NCBI GenBank assembly: GCA_017450605.1
Contig: JAFSTG010000091.1
Location: 1 to 40,397 of the forward strand
DNA: 40,397 nucleotides
Source: Paludibacteraceae bacterium
Lineage (GTDB): Bacteria; Bacteroidota; Bacteroidia; Bacteroidales; Paludibacteraceae
Direction of reading: 5' to 3'
The position numbers were made by a program, and so were the translations under genes. How positions within the stretch are numbered: position 1 is the stretch's first letter; every line of letters starts with the position of its first letter. Shown here piece by piece: positions 1-36,835 of this stretch. The notes beneath the pieces were generated by a model. That model was not told where the DNA came from. It searched no databases and saw nothing but the letters and a program-made list of their open reading frames with translations.

Positions 1-183
1 AAGCGAGTGGAAACACTTTTCTCACAGTTGGATGACCAATTTATGGTGTGTCGCAATTATGCTAAACAACAAGTAGGACTATTTGCTCGTATTATCAGCA
101 AAGTCAGCGCAATGACTGTCCTACAATATATAAACTTTATCAATAACAAACCGATTGGAAGAATCAAATATGCGCTGGTTTAA
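1..183 (+). CDS. IS982-type transposase, C-terminal end (cut by window edge)
   Basis: Frame 1 is open from the first base to TAA at 181-183 and gives about 60 residues. The run KRVETLFSQLDDQF, then CRNYAK and a segment ending RIISKVSAMTVLQYIN, is the usual C-terminal end of IS982-family DDE transposases, including the ETLFSQL stretch that carries the last catalytic Glu. Only the end of the gene is visible, so whether the copy is complete lies outside the window. The IS end probably falls just after the stop, near the CAACGGGTT at 191-199. The family call is from memory of the motif and is fairly sure. Confidence 0.75.
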   Translation, partial: KRVETLFSQLDDQFMVCRNYAKQQVGLFARIISKVSAMTVLQYINFINNKPIGRIKYALV

Positions 184-1043: not shown

Positions 1044-1721
1044 TCACACATTCAACACGAACTTGATGTCTTTTTCGCCGTTGAGGAGGCGGAAAGTGTT
1101 AAGCAGGTTCGTTTCGTATATGTGGACGTTGCCAAGGAACAATGTGATACTGTTTAATGGTATGCCGATTTCGCGTGCCATAAGATACAAGTGATAAATG
1201 TCTGAAGGCAAGCCGAGGCTCGCATCACTACTGCGTTGGTAGGCAGACACAATGAGCGAGCCTGTGGTTTGTCCGGTGTTCGGGTCTGTCGTGTTTTCTA
1301 TCTGAAACTGCACGAGGCTGAGGCAGGGTTGTTGGTTGGTCTGTGCGCCTGTTTCGCCGAGGAAGAGGACATAGTTCTTGCTTTCGCGCATCTCTTGTCT
1401 GATTTTCTCTACGAGTGCCGGGAACTTGCGGAAATAGGTGGGGTAACTGTTGATGAGTTGCTCTCCGCAATAATCCCACCATGTTATGCCTTCGGCTCGG
1501 TATTGTTCGGTGGCGGTTATGCCGGCTTCGAACATCTGCAGCTCGGTGCGGAGTTTCTTGCGTGCTATGCCGTGGGTCTCGAAGATGTCAAGCAGGTCGG
1601 CCGGTGTGAGGTGCAGCACCTGATTGGTGAGGTACTTGATTGAGCCTTTGCGGTTGGTCTGCGTTTGTCCGTTGTCAAGTATGTCGGCAAGGACTTGGTA
1701 GTATTTGTTGGTTGGTTTCAT
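1044..1721 (-). CDS. Thymidylate-synthase-like protein, predicted dCMP-type
   Basis: This 225-residue protein carries the thymidylate synthase core: PC-x4-QF with the nucleophile at Cys133, then YQRSSDASLGLPSDI (166-175 region), then GNVHIYE with His200 and Tyr202. In thymidylate synthase the LPFN Asn contacts uracil; here that position is Asp174, as in T4 dCMP hydroxymethylase. That predicts dCMP as the substrate, giving 5-hydroxymethyl- or 5-methyl-dCMP. The His after the catalytic Cys is Leu. The start at 1721 overlaps the methyltransferase stop (ATGA), so the two are translationally coupled; the longer frame upstream belongs to the other gene. It sits where Mu carries mom. Activity itself is inference. 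Confidence 0.75.
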   Translation of the reverse strand: MKPTNKYYQVLADILDNGQTQTNRKGSIKYLTNQVLHLTPADLLDIFETHGIARKKLRTELQMFEAGITATEQYRAEGITWWDYCGEQLINSYPTYFRKFPALVEKIRQEMRESKNYVLFLGETGAQTNQQPCLSLVQFQIENTTDPNTGQTTGSLIVSAYQRSSDASLGLPSDIYHLYLMAREIGIPLNSITLFLGNVHIYETNLLNTFRLLNGEKDIKFVLNV

Positions 1722-2569
1722 GCTGCGTTCCTCCTTTCTGTTGGTTGGTGTTTGTAGAGCATTATGTCGATAAAGCCTGCGGAATAGTTGAGGTTGGTGG
1801 CATAGTCGATGCGTGTTGCGCCTTTGAACGGGTTGCCGGTTTGGTATTCGTCGTCGAGCCATTCGCAGAGTTCCAAAATACTGCTTTTCTCCGATGTGAA
1901 ATAGAAGTAGTTGGTGTCGTGGAGTGTGTGCAGGACATCGAGGTAGTCGCGCAGTTTCCAATAGCCGGTGTAGGTGGTGGCTTGTGTGGATAGGTACGGC
2001 GGGTCAATGAGGAAACAAACGCCGTCTTGATTTTGATACTTGCGGAAAAGGCGGCGGTAGTCTTGGTGTACGATAGTCAGTCCGTCAAGGTAGCCGTCGG
2101 CAGTGTAGTCAGACTGGCGCAGGGTGTTGTAGAGGGTGTCTTTTTGCAGTTCTGCGAGTGAGGTGACATAGCGTCCTGAAAAGACGATTGAGGCGGAGAG
2201 GGTTACGTAGTCAAGATAGCCTCGTTGGTCGTATTCGGCAATCTTGCTGATGACCTGTGAGCGCACGGGTTCTTCTATGCGTTTGAGGTCGGGGTAACCT
2301 TTGAGGATTTCTCGTAGATCGCGCAGAAGTGCGTTGGTGGTGGGTATTGCCGCCAAGCGTTGGGAGTAGTTGTCGTAGTCGTTGTAGATGATGGTGGCAT
2401 CGGGTCGAACGGTGTGAGTGAAATGCGACAATAATCCGCTGCCTCCAAAGAGGTCAACGAAGGTGTGGCAGTCGCCAAATTCTTTGAGTAGTGCCGCCTT
2501 GAATTCTTTGTTCCAGCGGCGTTTCTGTCCCATAAATGGGAGCGGTGCTTGTGTGTAAGTCTTTGACAT
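1718..2569 (-). CDS. D12-class DNA adenine N6-methyltransferase
   Basis: The protein opens with a PLPFMGQKRRW segment (FxGxK motif), has the SAM-binding motif FVDLFGGSG near residue 40, and has the catalytic DPPYLS motif near residue 190. This order is that of D12-class (Dam-type) adenine methyltransferases. It would methylate phage or host DNA, protecting the phage from restriction. A start nine codons earlier, at 2596, is also possible. The gene is first in a two-gene leftward operon with the thymidylate-synthase-like protein, and no restriction enzyme is next to it, so it is an orphan methylase. Target site unknown. Confidence 0.88.
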   Translation of the reverse strand: MSKTYTQAPLPFMGQKRRWNKEFKAALLKEFGDCHTFVDLFGGSGLLSHFTHTVRPDATIIYNDYDNYSQRLAAIPTTNALLRDLREILKGYPDLKRIEEPVRSQVISKIAEYDQRGYLDYVTLSASIVFSGRYVTSLAELQKDTLYNTLRQSDYTADGYLDGLTIVHQDYRRLFRKYQNQDGVCFLIDPPYLSTQATTYTGYWKLRDYLDVLHTLHDTNYFYFTSEKSSILELCEWLDDEYQTGNPFKGATRIDYATNLNYSAGFIDIMLYKHQPTERRNAA

Positions 2570-2604
2570 AAGCGTTGAATTTTGTGAGTGAAACATTAAA
2601 TTTA

Positions 2605-2642: not shown

Positions 2643-2805
2643 CTCTCTTACCACTTGCGGGGTTTTGCCGCAGGGTCATATAACATAATGAAGCGCATAC
2701 CCGCTTGCTGGGACTACTATGTCCTCGGTAGCGGGTATGCGCTTGCAAATGTGGTCAGATAGAAAGGTAAGAGAGTTTATCTGCCACAGCCGAGGGCATT
2801 TTTTT
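2643..2805 (+). ncRNA. Structured non-coding RNA, retron-like shape, no RT nearby
   Basis: A closing stem pairs CTCTCTTACC (2643-2652) with GGTAAGAGAG (2766-2775), 10 perfect base pairs. Inside are a small hairpin TGCGG/CCGCA (2656-2660 with 2668-2672) and a 15-bp perfect hairpin (2691-2705 with 2730-2744) whose loop can pair GGAC with GTCC. A T-tract follows at 2799-2805, after a weak TGCC/GGCA stem. No long reading frame lies on this strand. A closing stem, a short hairpin and a long hairpin in this order recall retron msr-msd RNA, but no reverse transcriptase gene is in the window, so the class is open. It stands alone between two genes read on the other strand. Confidence 0.65.
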
Positions 2806-2819
2806 GTTGCCCATCGGCT
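2788..2819. terminator. Hairpin at the RNA 3' end
   Basis: AGCCGA-GGGCA pairs with TGCCC-A-TCGGCT around a T-rich loop (2799-2805). The T-tract lies in the loop, so this is not a standard terminator; termination at the T-tract after a short upstream stem is the alternative. Confidence 0.35.
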
Positions 2820-2989: not shown

Positions 2990-4129
2990 TTATTTTTTGC
3001 GTCCTTTTTTGAGGTCGTTGGTTATTGCTTTTCGGTCAACTTCGCTGTAGATTTGTGTGGTTTGCAGTTTTTGATGTCCGAGTAGTTTTTGTATGGTTGT
3101 TATCTGTACTCCGTTTTGTGAGAGGAGTGTTGCAAAGGTGTGGCGCGAGGAGTGAAAGGTTATCTTGCTATCTATTTTGAGGCGGTCGAGTACCTGACGT
3201 AGTGTCTTGTTAACGGATGAGTTGGTTTGTAGCGCCTTTGTCAGACGTTCTATTTTGCCGTTGTATTTATCCACCAACTGAAGCATTTTGCCGTTGAATA
3301 GTTCCGCACATGGTATTTCAACGATGAAGCCTGTCTTGACCATTTTCTTTGTTAACCATCCGTCTTTGATATGTTCAGAACGGAGTGTTATTACATCAGA
3401 AAATCTTAAACCGGTGTAGCAACCTATAAGGAACGCATCTCGTACTTTATCCTCTATGCCTTTGAGTGTCATTTTCTCTAATCGGTGCAATTGCTCAATA
3501 GTAAGAAAGCCCTTCTTTGAAACCATCTGCTGTATGCGAAATCGGTCGAAAGGGTTGACTGGTATGATGTCGCGTTTTTTTGCTTCGTTGAGAATAGCAC
3601 GCAACAGACGCAAACGACTGATTCGGGTGTTGTGTGCTATCTCTGAATCGCGAAGCCATTTGTCGTAAGCAACGACAAACTGATAATCAACATCAGTGAT
3701 AAGCGTTCCCTTGCGGAACTTTTCAATGTTGTTAAAGAGCGTTTGGTAGTTTTGTTTTGTGAGGTTTTTACGCTCACTTTGTTCTACCACCTGTGTTCCG
3801 AAATCCGAGAGTTTTGCAGCCGGTGATATGTGCTGCCTAACGGCTTCTCTTAGCATTGGCAAATGGACATCTACACCTTTTTTAATGTATTCAAGTTCCA
3901 CTCGCTCGACCTCCTGTATCATCAGACATAGTGCGTAATTCAGGCTGTCGGCGTTTGGTGTTCCGGTAACGGAACCATTACTGAAATACTCCGGTTGTAC
4001 ATAAGTGTGAGTACTAAAATAAATGCGGCGTTTTTGCTGTGAGCACTCAATTTCTATTAGGCCTTCGCCTCGCTTATTGAGTCGCCTCGCTCGGTTAAAA
4101 ACTAACTTGTAACGAATTTTGTTGAGCAT
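2990..4129 (-). CDS. Tyrosine recombinase
   Basis: The 379-residue protein has a Bacteroidales-type N-terminal arm-binding region, a SAM-like core-binding domain (about 100-200) and a catalytic domain with Arg242 (TGLRFSD), His326-x-x-Arg329 (HSSRH), a GH before residue 355 and the nucleophile Tyr361 (TQIYSEV). All key residues are present, so it should be active. A MuA-type phage does not need such an enzyme to integrate. Its place beside the tail fibre fits a DNA invertase or a resolvase, as with the Bacteroides inversion recombinases, or cargo from another element. No inverted fibre copy is visible. Confidence 0.9.
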   Translation of the reverse strand: MLNKIRYKLVFNRARRLNKRGEGLIEIECSQQKRRIYFSTHTYVQPEYFSNGSVTGTPNADSLNYALCLMIQEVERVELEYIKKGVDVHLPMLREAVRQHISPAAKLSDFGTQVVEQSERKNLTKQNYQTLFNNIEKFRKGTLITDVDYQFVVAYDKWLRDSEIAHNTRISRLRLLRAILNEAKKRDIIPVNPFDRFRIQQMVSKKGFLTIEQLHRLEKMTLKGIEDKVRDAFLIGCYTGLRFSDVITLRSEHIKDGWLTKKMVKTGFIVEIPCAELFNGKMLQLVDKYNGKIERLTKALQTNSSVNKTLRQVLDRLKIDSKITFHSSRHTFATLLSQNGVQITTIQKLLGHQKLQTTQIYSEVDRKAITNDLKKGRKK

Positions 4130-4385: not shown

Positions 4386-7124
4386 TTAGGCAGCCGGAAC
4401 GAGGTCGGCAGGGTTCCAAATTCGCAACTCACCATTGGTTGTCAAGCCTGCAATTTGGGTATAGTTTTTGTCTGTTGCGAAGTTGATAAGTAGGCGGTTT
4501 GTATCGGAATATCCGTGTGTTCCATTGAGTATTTGTGCGTGCTCAATACTTGTACCTGTGTCAGTGGTAGCTTTTTGCACATCAATATAATAGACATGCT
4601 CAAACAACGTGAGGTAATGAGTGTTAGCAGCGAATAAGTTCCAATAGCAGTAGTTCCCGAACTGATTACCCCAGCAACTGTTCCCGAACTGATTACCCCA
4701 GCAACTGTTCCCGAATGTGTTTTTTCTGAAATAGTTGCCTATCCTATTTTCTGTAAATGTTTTCCCTGTGAGGTTATAAGCAATATCATTTCCAAAATCG
4801 TTATATGCTGTAAGCCCGAAGAAGGTGTTTGCTCTGGCTTCTACACCAAACTTATTACCTCTTACATACAGGTTCGTTAGGTCATCTGCCGAAGAGAATT
4901 CACCTAAGAAAACACTATCATCCACTCGGAACATTCCTGCCTGTCCGGTAAGTATAGCTTCAGCATTATCAACATCAACAAAGCTTTTTGACTCGTTATC
5001 GAGCACAGTTGGAACGATGGCATTAACGCCGGGATATAGTTGGCTAACATCAAGTCCAAGCGAACTATCAGCAACCAACACCCCTCCTTGTAAAGCCGAA
5101 TAACGATAGAAAAACTTACTATCATTGAGGTCTATTTGATAGCCATACGGATATTCCATTTCCTCGTCATTAATGGCTACATACTTATCGGCAAAGGGAT
5201 AATTATCCTCATCATCGCCTGCGCTCAGTTGAGTTTCCACAATTTCAGAAGCCGCGAATGTGAATGGTGTCCCATCGATATTTACCGCAAAGTTATCGTT
5301 CTGGCTATCGTATTTAGCATAATAAGTATAAGCGTTGCTATCGCTAAGTCGAAGCAAAGTATAGCCTACAACAGCATCGTTTTCTAATTTTTGCGACTTC
5401 AACAAATAGTCAGTGCCATCAATGGTAACTGTGCGCTTTGTTGCTTTTAGTTTATACCTGCGGAATTGCAAGTTTTTGAAGTCAAACGGATGATCATTGT
5501 TCCACTCATCAATCATACGGAATACCACACCTTTCCCGTTTGCATTAGCCCAATCGAACATCATAGTATCGTTATCGAGCGAATACCATAACCGCCATGC
5601 TTCGAGTTTTGACTTTGCGAAGTAAGTATCACCTGTATGGTGCAAGGCTTTGACTTCTGCGGACAATTTATCAGAGCTAACAGCAACGAGCAGCAGGTCA
5701 TAAGCATGTCCAGCTGACTGGATGTCGGTTCTATTGGCGTTAACGGTCGTCAGGAAATCGGTCATTCGATATTGCTGTCCGGGAATGAGCTGACCATTAT
5801 TGCGAAGCTCTACAAGTTCAGCGTATGTCACCTGCTGAATACCCTTGAGGTAATCTGCAAATTTGTTCCATAGCTCTGCAATAGCTCCGACTATGGTTTT
5901 AGCTACTGTAACAAGCGAATTGTCCGTCTTATCTTGTTTGCCGGAGATGTCTTGGTGTTGAGTCAGATAATTGCCGGATGGTTGTTTACTATCAAGAGCA
6001 GCCTGCAAACCTGTTACATCGCTAATGGCGTGATTGTGATTAGCGGTTGCATATTCTGCTCCGTGGCTGTGGTTCAAATCCGCTTTGTTATCAAGAGCTG
6101 CTTTAATAACAGAATTCTTAACGGCATTATTTGACGTTGATGATAGCGAGTTGTCAAGCGTTTCCTGATATACAGGTGTGCGGACTGTCCAGCCTGACCA
6201 AGTAATAACCTGTTCGTCGTTGACGGTGCGGATGGTGCCGGTGCGTGTCCGGGTGTTGGCACTTGTGCCGTCGCGTTGGTCTTTGGTCAAGGTCTGGCTT
6301 ATCTTGCTTGAGTTGGCTGAGCATACGAAGCGATAGGTGGCTATCTGATTGCTTGTCTGAATAAGCACTACATCATACGAGCCGGTGCGAGTGTATTGTT
6401 TGAGCAGGTTGTCAAGGTTGGTGAATGAGCCGTTGCAATAGATTACACCATCGTCCTCGTTGTCTTCGATGAGTTCAAACTCGCCATCGCGATATTTGTA
6501 GAAATAGCCGGTGTCCTCGGTTATGTAGAGGGTGCTTTCTGACGGTTCCGCCACTTGTTCAAGCGCAGCGGCATCGGCTACATAGACCACTTCCTGAATA
6601 TCTGGTTCCGGGTCGGTCTGCGGTCGGTACTCGTCGATGAGTTCGACCACTCGGCTTTGGAAATTGTCGATGTCGGAGGCGGTGTGGGTGTGTCCGCTGT
6701 CTGATTTGTCATTGAGTGCTTCTCCAAGCCCTGTTATCTCTCCCATTTCGTGACGGTGGGTTTGGTCGGCTTTGTTGTCAAGAGCGTCCTGCAAGCCGTT
6801 GATGTCCGATGTGCTGTGGGTGTGGTTGTCGTCGGCTTTGTTGTCAAGTGCGGAAGCGATGGCAGCGTTCTGCACCGGATTGGCGGACGCGGGATCGATA
6901 GCGGCATCGACCTGCGTTGTGGGCAGGTTCTGAATGTCGGATGCATCGTGGGTGTGGTGGGCATCTGCCTTATCGTTGAGTGTTTGCGGGAGGGCGTGGA
7001 TGTCGGTTATTTCGATGCGGTCTTCGGATTTGTGCCAGAAGGAGTCGAAGGCTTCGGCGAACTGTGCGGCGAGGGGTTTCTTGCCGCGTGAGAACCATTG
7101 TTTGAGGGTTTGTCGTGGGGTCAT
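4386..7124 (-). CDS. Tail fibre protein, long (912 aa)
   Basis: The N-terminal 160 residues hold four repeats of the type NKADxxHTHxxSDIxxL, ending HTHTASDI, a fibre-shaft motif with metal-binding His pairs; further copies occur near 330-390. A central region of unknown fold follows. The last third has five-residue-like repeats (GNxFxxN), with GNSCWGNQF occurring twice in a row and GNYCYWNLF after it, typical of a beta-helix tip. It should bind the cell surface at the distal tail. The gene is the last of the leftward late operon. The receptor cannot be predicted. Confidence 0.8.
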   Translation of the reverse strand: MTPRQTLKQWFSRGKKPLAAQFAEAFDSFWHKSEDRIEITDIHALPQTLNDKADAHHTHDASDIQNLPTTQVDAAIDPASANPVQNAAIASALDNKADDNHTHSTSDINGLQDALDNKADQTHRHEMGEITGLGEALNDKSDSGHTHTASDIDNFQSRVVELIDEYRPQTDPEPDIQEVVYVADAAALEQVAEPSESTLYITEDTGYFYKYRDGEFELIEDNEDDGVIYCNGSFTNLDNLLKQYTRTGSYDVVLIQTSNQIATYRFVCSANSSKISQTLTKDQRDGTSANTRTRTGTIRTVNDEQVITWSGWTVRTPVYQETLDNSLSSTSNNAVKNSVIKAALDNKADLNHSHGAEYATANHNHAISDVTGLQAALDSKQPSGNYLTQHQDISGKQDKTDNSLVTVAKTIVGAIAELWNKFADYLKGIQQVTYAELVELRNNGQLIPGQQYRMTDFLTTVNANRTDIQSAGHAYDLLLVAVSSDKLSAEVKALHHTGDTYFAKSKLEAWRLWYSLDNDTMMFDWANANGKGVVFRMIDEWNNDHPFDFKNLQFRRYKLKATKRTVTIDGTDYLLKSQKLENDAVVGYTLLRLSDSNAYTYYAKYDSQNDNFAVNIDGTPFTFAASEIVETQLSAGDDEDNYPFADKYVAINDEEMEYPYGYQIDLNDSKFFYRYSALQGGVLVADSSLGLDVSQLYPGVNAIVPTVLDNESKSFVDVDNAEAILTGQAGMFRVDDSVFLGEFSSADDLTNLYVRGNKFGVEARANTFFGLTAYNDFGNDIAYNLTGKTFTENRIGNYFRKNTFGNSCWGNQFGNSCWGNQFGNYCYWNLFAANTHYLTLFEHVYYIDVQKATTDTGTSIEHAQILNGTHGYSDTNRLLINFATDKNYTQIAGLTTNGELRIWNPADLVPAA
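4655..4712. repeat. 30-bp tandem repeat in the fibre tip
   Basis: A 30-base unit that includes CAGCAACTGTTCCCGAACTG is repeated head to tail with almost no change, giving the doubled GNSCWGNQF peptide. Near-identical DNA means recent duplication, and copy number could vary by slippage. Confidence 0.75.
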
Positions 7125-36750: not shown

Positions 36751-36835
36751 AATTGTACTTTTCTTTTTGAACCCATATCTCCTAACTCCCTAATAATCAA
36801 ACCACCCACTCAAAGCAATTGTACTTTTCATTCTG
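36751..36835. promoter_or_regulatory. Left-end transposase sites, two copies
   Basis: AATTGTACTTTTCTTTTTGA (36751-36770) and CAATTGTACTTTTCATTCTG (36816-36835) are inverted copies of the motif at 761-801. The outer copy lies 9 bases from the proposed terminus, the same distance as on the other side. Confidence 0.7.

Follow-up and report, generated by a model that had tools for sequence, protein, structure and literature searches.

A thymidylate synthase-like protein paired with an adenine methylase at the end of a hankyphage-like prophage: a probable cytosine-nucleotide enzyme

What is the role of a phage protein that GenBank annotates as a thymidylate synthase (TS), that carries aspartate where TS has its base-selecting asparagine, and whose gene shares the last stretch of a transposable phage genome with that of a DNA adenine methylase? 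The two genes lie in the window analyzed here, a stretch of 40,397 nucleotides from a Paludibacteraceae bacterium (assembly GCA_017450605.1, contig JAFSTG010000091.1), which contains a 36-kb transposable prophage at 751-36777. A preliminary description, made from the sequence alone, took them for a cytosine-type pyrimidine enzyme coupled to an adenine methylase at the mom position of a Mu-like phage. The reading favored here, at a probability of roughly 60%, is that the TS-like enzyme uses a cytosine nucleotide, with deoxycytidine monophosphate (dCMP) as the likely substrate on the strength of its predicted active site, to modify the phage DNA. The two genes are:

1044-1721, minus strand: TS-like protein of 225 amino acids, predicted cytosine-type C5 enzyme (ATG at 1721; Pfam Thymidylat_synt, E 2.4e-17)
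1718-2596, minus strand: D12-class DNA adenine methylase of 292 amino acids (PF02086, MethyltransfD12, E 3.3e-8, 34 bits against a cut-off of 22)

The TS-like protein has the TS fold, and its active site provides the principal evidence on base recognition. A MAFFT alignment with T4 gp42, the dCMP hydroxymethylase of that phage, and the host ThyA places Asp174 in the column of E. coli Asn177 and gp42 Asp179, the comparison on which the cytosine proposal had been made to depend, and the columns are the same when its profile is compared with those of a TS and of a gp42 group. Both approaches also show about four residues missing, relative to TS, shortly after Asp174. Conservation was assessed across 163 loci, comprising 80 viral loci (the best 80 of 107), 80 genome loci (the best 80 of 260 confirmed matches), two hankyphage records and the window, which together yield 127 distinct full-length TS-like sequences. 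Asp174 and Leu134, at TS positions 177 and 147, are present in all 127 and are therefore neither chance occurrences nor a one-off mutation. Cys133, Arg163, Ser164, Asp166, His200, Tyr202 and Trp82 are equally invariant and Glu60 is kept in 126 of the 127; apart from Asp166, Trp82 and Glu60, all of these had already been placed in this way by the preliminary description. The nearest named relative, in a rumen Paludibacteraceae metagenome-assembled genome (locus L085), encodes a protein 99% identical to that of the window. At one further locus (G008:C35:25768-26408) the TS-like gene is split over two overlapping frames, and a second copy in the same genome (C53) is whole.

Positions 177 and 147 are those that best separate the homologues of cytosine-modified from those of unmodified phage contigs; Asp predominates at 177 in the modified contigs, and a change from Asn to Asp there lets TS make 5-methyl-dCMP (PMC8670742). 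The text of that paper does not state which residue occupies 147 in the modified contigs. Because Asp174 and Leu134 fall on these best separators, recognition of cytosine over uracil is the best reading of the predicted site, in keeping with the cytosine-type assignment first proposed. An ordinary, if divergent, TS making thymidine monophosphate for phage replication, the function implied by the GenBank annotation, fits poorly with Asn177 being Asp and His147 being Leu in every one of the 127 sequences. It fits no better with the genomes that carry the gene. Of 150 family genomes, 10 carry the TS-like gene in full or nearly so (E 1e-98 or better), and in all 10 a second, weaker match of the host ThyA kind appears (E 7e-10 to 9e-13); an eleventh genome has a 45-residue TS-like fragment. 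The second match in the genome of the window is plainly a separate host ThyA. Since a second ThyA-like match accompanies the gene in each of the 10, it is probably not needed for thymidylate, and we regard the annotated function as very unlikely. Compared with E. coli and other bacterial ThyA, the family shows not only Asn177 to Asp and His147 to Leu but also Leu143 to Gln and R126-R127 to Lys-Asn, and the window protein is shorter by about 40 residues.

If cytosine is recognized, is the protein then a relative of the T4 hydroxymethylase, to which its aspartate had originally been likened? The two share the TS superfamily, a catalytic Cys, Asp at the base-selecting position and a residue other than His after the Cys. 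Closer kinship is not supported. Profile comparison (hhalign) gives 99.0% with TS, 98.97% with a group around gp25 of Edwardsiella phage KF-1 and 61% with the gp42 group, and a TS-superfamily tree of 68 rows puts the family on the TS side, away from gp42 (98/96), with long-branch warnings for PEi20 gp42, ct3Et533, Clock48 and LR756508. The family's own stem in this tree measures 5.27 and its exact place is unsure. On the profile match, the tree and Gln130 (below), membership of the T4-like hydroxymethylases was not adopted. The gp42 chain is absent among the matches listed in structure comparisons, which is not evidence of different folds. A close relative outside the family, KF-1 gp25, appears as its sister with weak support (92/59) and shares the LGLPSDI motif with Asp at 177; it differs in keeping the equivalents of His147 and Leu143 and nearly full TS length. 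The KF-1 gene adjoins genes for a nucleotide pyrophosphohydrolase and a dCMP deaminase, and this neighborhood of a relative with the same PSDI motif supports a cytosine nucleotide as the substrate.

Evidence on the product is divided, and we lean only slightly towards 5-methyl-dCMP over 5-hydroxymethyl-dCMP (hmdCMP). Asp or Glu three residues before the Cys is a signature of hydroxymethylases (PMC6400193). All 127 sequences have Gln130 here, where TS has Leu and T4 has Asp; the residue was counted back from the Cys because MAFFT across the TS groups misplaces this region as well as Tyr94. The T4 enzyme lacks the C-terminal tail of TS (PMC6400193). In the structural model of the TS-like protein, residue 225 is the last one aligned, against residue 264 of E. 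coli TS (EcTS; ranges only, with a predicted local distance difference test score of 79 for the last block). The model and the ending KF.LNV, which is conserved in the family, suggest a TS-like tail; the profile alignment stops earlier, at residue 216. A simple C-terminal truncation was set aside, as the models put residue 225 at the TS C-terminus. A third feature is the position of T4 Ser94, which coincides in space with EcTS Val93 and is Ser or Thr in hydroxymethylases (PMC6400193). In the window protein Thr95 would take this position if Tyr96, one of two candidate tyrosines (93 and 96), is EcTS Tyr94. The protein thus reads as a mixture: it appears to recognize its base in the cytosine manner and probably ends as TS does, its phosphate site is altered, and close to the water site it has a polar residue peculiar to it.

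The mechanism that we infer is that of a working member of the TS superfamily acting on a cytosine nucleotide, most likely dCMP. Asp174 would hold N3 and the 4-amino group while Cys133 attacked C6, and methylene-tetrahydrofolate would supply the one-carbon unit added at C5, to give 5-methyl-dCMP or hmdCMP. Host kinases would then raise the product to the triphosphate, and some of the modified nucleotide would enter phage DNA during replicative transposition. Together with the D12 adenine methylase, the enzyme would form exchangeable DNA-protection cargo at the end of a hankyphage-like phage, where Mu keeps mom.

Is this indeed the end of a phage genome? The prophage carries MuA-, MuB- and Gam-like genes (phrog_310, phrog_296 and phrog_491 in a PHROGs scan of the window proteins), together with terminase and portal genes (PHROGs) and protease, capsid and tail genes (Pfam). 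At its left end, homology to two differently inserted relatives, L085 and L087, stops at 751 and 750, and the 5-bp direct repeat TCTCC flanks 751-36777 (copies at 746-750 and 36778-36782). The end repeat AAAAAGAAAARTACA, inverted at the ends, has five matches with up to two mismatches where 0.22 are expected. The transposition genes, Gam, the terminal repeats and the target duplication are those of a hankyphage-like transposable phage, and the gene plan, judged by eye, follows that of hankyphage p00. The ends are:

751-1043, no strand: left prophage end (limit of the homology to L085 and L087; copies of the end repeat at 763-777 and 785-799)
36754-36777, no strand: right end of the prophage, less sure (inverted end-repeat copy at 36754-36768; TCTCC at 36778-36782)

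The right end is the less certain of the two and rests on the TCTCC repeat and the end repeat at 36754-36768; a weaker copy with two mismatches (36820-36834) falls outside it. The D12 and TS-like genes are the last two before the left end and the TS-like gene is the very last, so that the placement at the mom position of a Mu-like phage is borne out. Elsewhere in the prophage a tyrosine recombinase gene (2990-4129, minus strand) adjoins a tail-fibre-like gene (4386-7124, minus strand), at a place where p00 has a retroelement; it may perhaps offer another way of varying the tail. Outside the prophage, the translation of 1-183 (plus strand) resembles, by eye, the C-terminal end of an insertion-sequence transposase.

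The methylase is the second member of the module, and the two genes overlap by ATGA at 1718-1721. Its protein matches the type II methyltransferase model PDLC03268 (E 7.8e-59), and its DPPY and FGGSG motifs are kept in at least 97% of 100 sequences. It reaches 29.4 bits with the Dam model TIGR00571, against a cut-off of 114.85, and no solved structure resembles it in a phmmer search at E 0.01. Many homologues align only from about residue 10, and 2569, an internal ATG of the reading frame 1718-2596, is therefore the likelier start, as it had been drawn originally. In 132 of the 163 loci the TS-like gene has a D12 homologue next to it, upstream in 56 and downstream in 76, and the genes overlap by four bases in 11 of the 56 loci with the upstream order. 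Gene order has switched at least 8 times on a TS tree and at least 5 times on a D12 tree, where label shuffles give at least 29 and at least 27 (quick trees, 50 shuffles each). Pairing that is kept through repeated changes of order suggests joint use; exchange of cargo at a common site would give the same pattern.

Several observations weigh against the pair jointly modifying phage DNA. In 31 of the 163 loci the TS-like gene has no adjoining D12 gene (several of these lie near contig ends and others have different neighbors), and the tree implies at least 15 gains or losses of the pair. There are, moreover, three loci with D12 behind the same structured RNA (described below) and no TS-like gene. 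Since 31 loci lack the one gene and three the other, the coupling put forward initially is common but not obligatory. The enzyme may thus have been read correctly while its link to D12 is a shared address only, the two being independent cargo of an end-of-phage site. This alternative is in keeping with what else lies close to the site, since L003 has a different DNA methyltransferase there and L075 an ATPase-like protein; persistence of the pair through at least 8 order switches and the 4-base overlap argue against it. We hold it to be a serious contender, somewhat short of even odds, on a question separate from that of the substrate, and its odds are not to be added to those of the other alternatives.

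The phosphate site also counts against the enzyme reading. The equivalents of R126 and R127, assigned by profile alignment, are Lys115 and Asn116 in 127 of 127 sequences. Such a change, like the long stem in the tree, would suit an inactive, TS-derived binder of nucleotide or folate that works through sequestration or through contact with protein. The catalytic residues are nevertheless invariant in 127 distinct sequences, Glu60 in all but one of them, and we judge inactivity unlikely, if less so than the annotated function. The lysine recalls, too, the ribonucleotide enzymes MilA and BcmA, in which Lys at R126' and Ala at S167 are tied to ribonucleotide substrates (PMC5175136). A MilA-like enzyme would modify cytidine monophosphate, and its product would end in RNA or a small molecule and not in DNA. 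Lys115 falls on R126', a position (133') at which MilA and BcmA have Lys and deoxy-specific enzymes Arg (PMC5175136). Ser164, by contrast, is the deoxy-type residue; MilA has Ala176 at this position, and its replacement by Ser shifts MilA towards dCMP (PMC5175136). A MilA-like identity was rejected, with Lys115 present and the alanine absent, half of the signature only, and modification of ribonucleotides seems nearly as improbable as the production of thymidylate.

What remains to be weighed against the modification of phage DNA by the TS-like enzyme are its pathway and the composition of the prophage. Among 40 window proteins, scanned with Pfam and/or PHROGs, no dCTPase, dCMP deaminase, nucleotide kinase or glycosyltransferase was recognized; four of the 40 sit to the right of the prophage, and other small open reading frames (ORFs) were outside the scan. 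This agrees with the preliminary description, to which a dCTPase or kinase was not obvious. For comparison, the T4 kinase gp1 is annotated as phosphorylating hmdCMP and not dCMP. The prophage avoids five sites very strongly, with observed against trinucleotide-based expected counts of 7 to 141 for GGCC, 22 to 109 for ACGT, 39 to 122 for AGCT, 12 to 106 for GATC and 0 to 52 for CTAG. The host (12 stretches, 132 kb) avoids the same five, less strongly in four of them (0.19, 0.69, 0.48, 0.15 and 0 of expectation, in the same order), CTAG being absent from both, and the site composition of the prophage may follow that of the host. In T4 (61 kb), whose cytosines are replaced, the values are 1.08, 0.87, 0.96, 0.35 and 0.85. 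A fully cytosine-replaced phage should not need such avoidance, and replacement in the prophage is therefore probably partial, conditional or absent, not complete. The partial replacement assumed at the outset is consistent with the avoidance of GGCC, ACGT and AGCT as far as it speaks against complete replacement. Hankyphage p00 carries the same pair and avoids little (0.77, 0.77, 1.01, 0.77 and 0.04, thus mainly CTAG), so that what holds for this prophage may not hold for the whole family.

The module is preceded by a further conserved feature, on the opposite strand:

2676-2814, plus strand: structured non-coding RNA candidate, divergent from the D12/TS-like module (fold z, covariation, matches at 127 of 163 loci)

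The stretch before the D12 gene (2630-2860) has a fold z of -7.89, with none of 200 shuffles as good. Across nine related sequences, double changes occur at 13 of 37 pairs, a value that none of 500 shuffles reaches; pairing stands at 92.7% and falls to 44.5% or less once the partners are slid against each other. A covariance model finds the RNA on the strand opposite the TS-like gene in 127 of 163 sources (67 of 83 plus 60 of 80), a count that includes the nine model sequences and matches with E up to 0.01 and for which the whole p00 record (L307) replaces L083; the p00 copy lies at L307:40540-40669 (minus strand). A further 16 matches fall on the other strand of loci already having one, and in L077 the two strands score alike. 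Among the 150 genomes of the family, 9 carry 12 matches between them. Of these matches 8 adjoin a TS-like gene, and the RNA accompanies 8 of the 12 TS-like places (strict filters, some contigs cut). Rfam 15 has no family at the gathering cut-off anywhere in the window, and at E 5 only a microRNA model, far under its own cut-off, matches 2580-2990.

In shape, the RNA is a long hairpin with a sequence-variable stem and a loop able to pair with the 3' tail that leads into a U-run. The loop, GCCCCCGG, pairs with CCGGGGGC before the U-run through nine pairs, five with double changes, in a structure-free alignment of 44 sequences. This pairing amounts to 96.7% against 62.9% or less when slid; the covariation score falls less, from 0.239 to 0.204 at -1. 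RNAalifold recovers the loop-tail pairing from the 44 sequences and misses the long stem because the stem does not align, and it was sought in each sequence instead. Searched in this way, the stem below the loop keeps its pairing with 66 distinct arms in 80 sequences; the longest uninterrupted stem runs from 10 to 24, with a median of 15, and at least two sequences have the loop-tail pairing as their longest run instead. All 80 fold better than shuffles, with z below -2 (20 shuffles each). In the nine-sequence fold the loop is in part paired with itself, so that the loop-tail pairing would be either a pseudoknot or an alternative. The reality of a conserved structured RNA is well supported; it may act as a regulator of the module or in some other way.

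What else stands behind this RNA? Distances from it to the first gene of the module, taken in 80 sources picked among those with a match, are 335-401 bases for 62 sources and 52-114 for 15; three fall outside these ranges (-188, 29 and 967). In the hankyphage jmh47_hp (L084), an 80-amino acid protein (5688-5930; PHROG 17790, of unknown function) lies between the RNA and the TS-like gene. Its Pfam matches, to TIR_2 (E 0.0071) and to the Mor activator family (E 0.0061), are equally weak, and a late-activator PHROG matches at E 0.039; the 335-401-base spacing would leave room for an ORF of this kind. Of the four RNA matches in the family genomes that are not beside a TS-like gene, three face D12 genes 52-58% identical to that of the window, with no TS-like gene in the stretch taken. 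Locus L003 has its methyltransferase (3230-3823; PHROG 799, E 3.9e-57) directly after the TS-like gene and no D12. The ATPase-like protein at L075 (6923-8026) also follows the TS-like gene; it belongs to PHROG 11143, whose function is unknown, and has a weak GNAT match that falls below the cut-off of Pfam. An ATPase-like ORF of PHROG 11143 (1-689) lies near the fourth RNA match, in a short contig, L334. We read the site as a DNA-protection cargo bay, with the RNA perhaps as its constant head and the TS-like enzyme as what may be its cytosine-side cargo. Taken to its full extent, this reading would have a dedicated, RNA-headed site ending hankyphage-like phages, the RNA being transcribed away from swapped cargo (D12 and TS-like genes in either order, another methylase, an ATPase-like protein) that it controls or protects, and the phage DNA of the window would receive both nucleotide-level cytosine modification and N6-methyladenine. 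We put this joint proposal forward as tentative, with the odds against it.

A hankyphage "thymidylate synthase" is therefore annotated with a function that its active site does not support. Hankyphages are described as widespread in Bacteroides symbionts (PMC12135933). The word thymidylate is absent from the main text of PMC12135933, PMC6199706 and PMC10367356, and the parts of the literature consulted gave no description of the enzyme's substrate or of the RNA. Phages of gut and rumen Bacteroidales carry the module at their genome end, perhaps as a swappable DNA-protection kit, and the RNA is a handle for finding further cargo of this kind. Nucleotide-level modification is known mainly from lytic phages that also break down dCTP. 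If modified cytosine is made here, a temperate, transposing phage would carry out such modification, which raises the question of how host and phage tolerate a partial one. The enzyme also breaks the published hydroxymethylase signature, and can be used to test which residues decide between methyl and hydroxymethyl.

Among known systems, phage Mu likewise has its DNA modification module, com-mom, at the end of its transposable genome. Mom itself modifies adenine and is of the GNAT type, whereas the window has a predicted nucleotide-level enzyme and a D12 methylase, together with a structured RNA. Hankyphage p00 and its relatives (BK010646, the jmh_hp phages) are closer, with the same TS-like gene family at 64% identity, an N6 methyltransferase partner, the same end of a transposable genome and the same RNA. 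They differ in gene order, with TS followed by methylase in p00 and methylase followed by TS in the window, and in the retroelement for tail variation, in place of which the window phage has a tyrosine recombinase.
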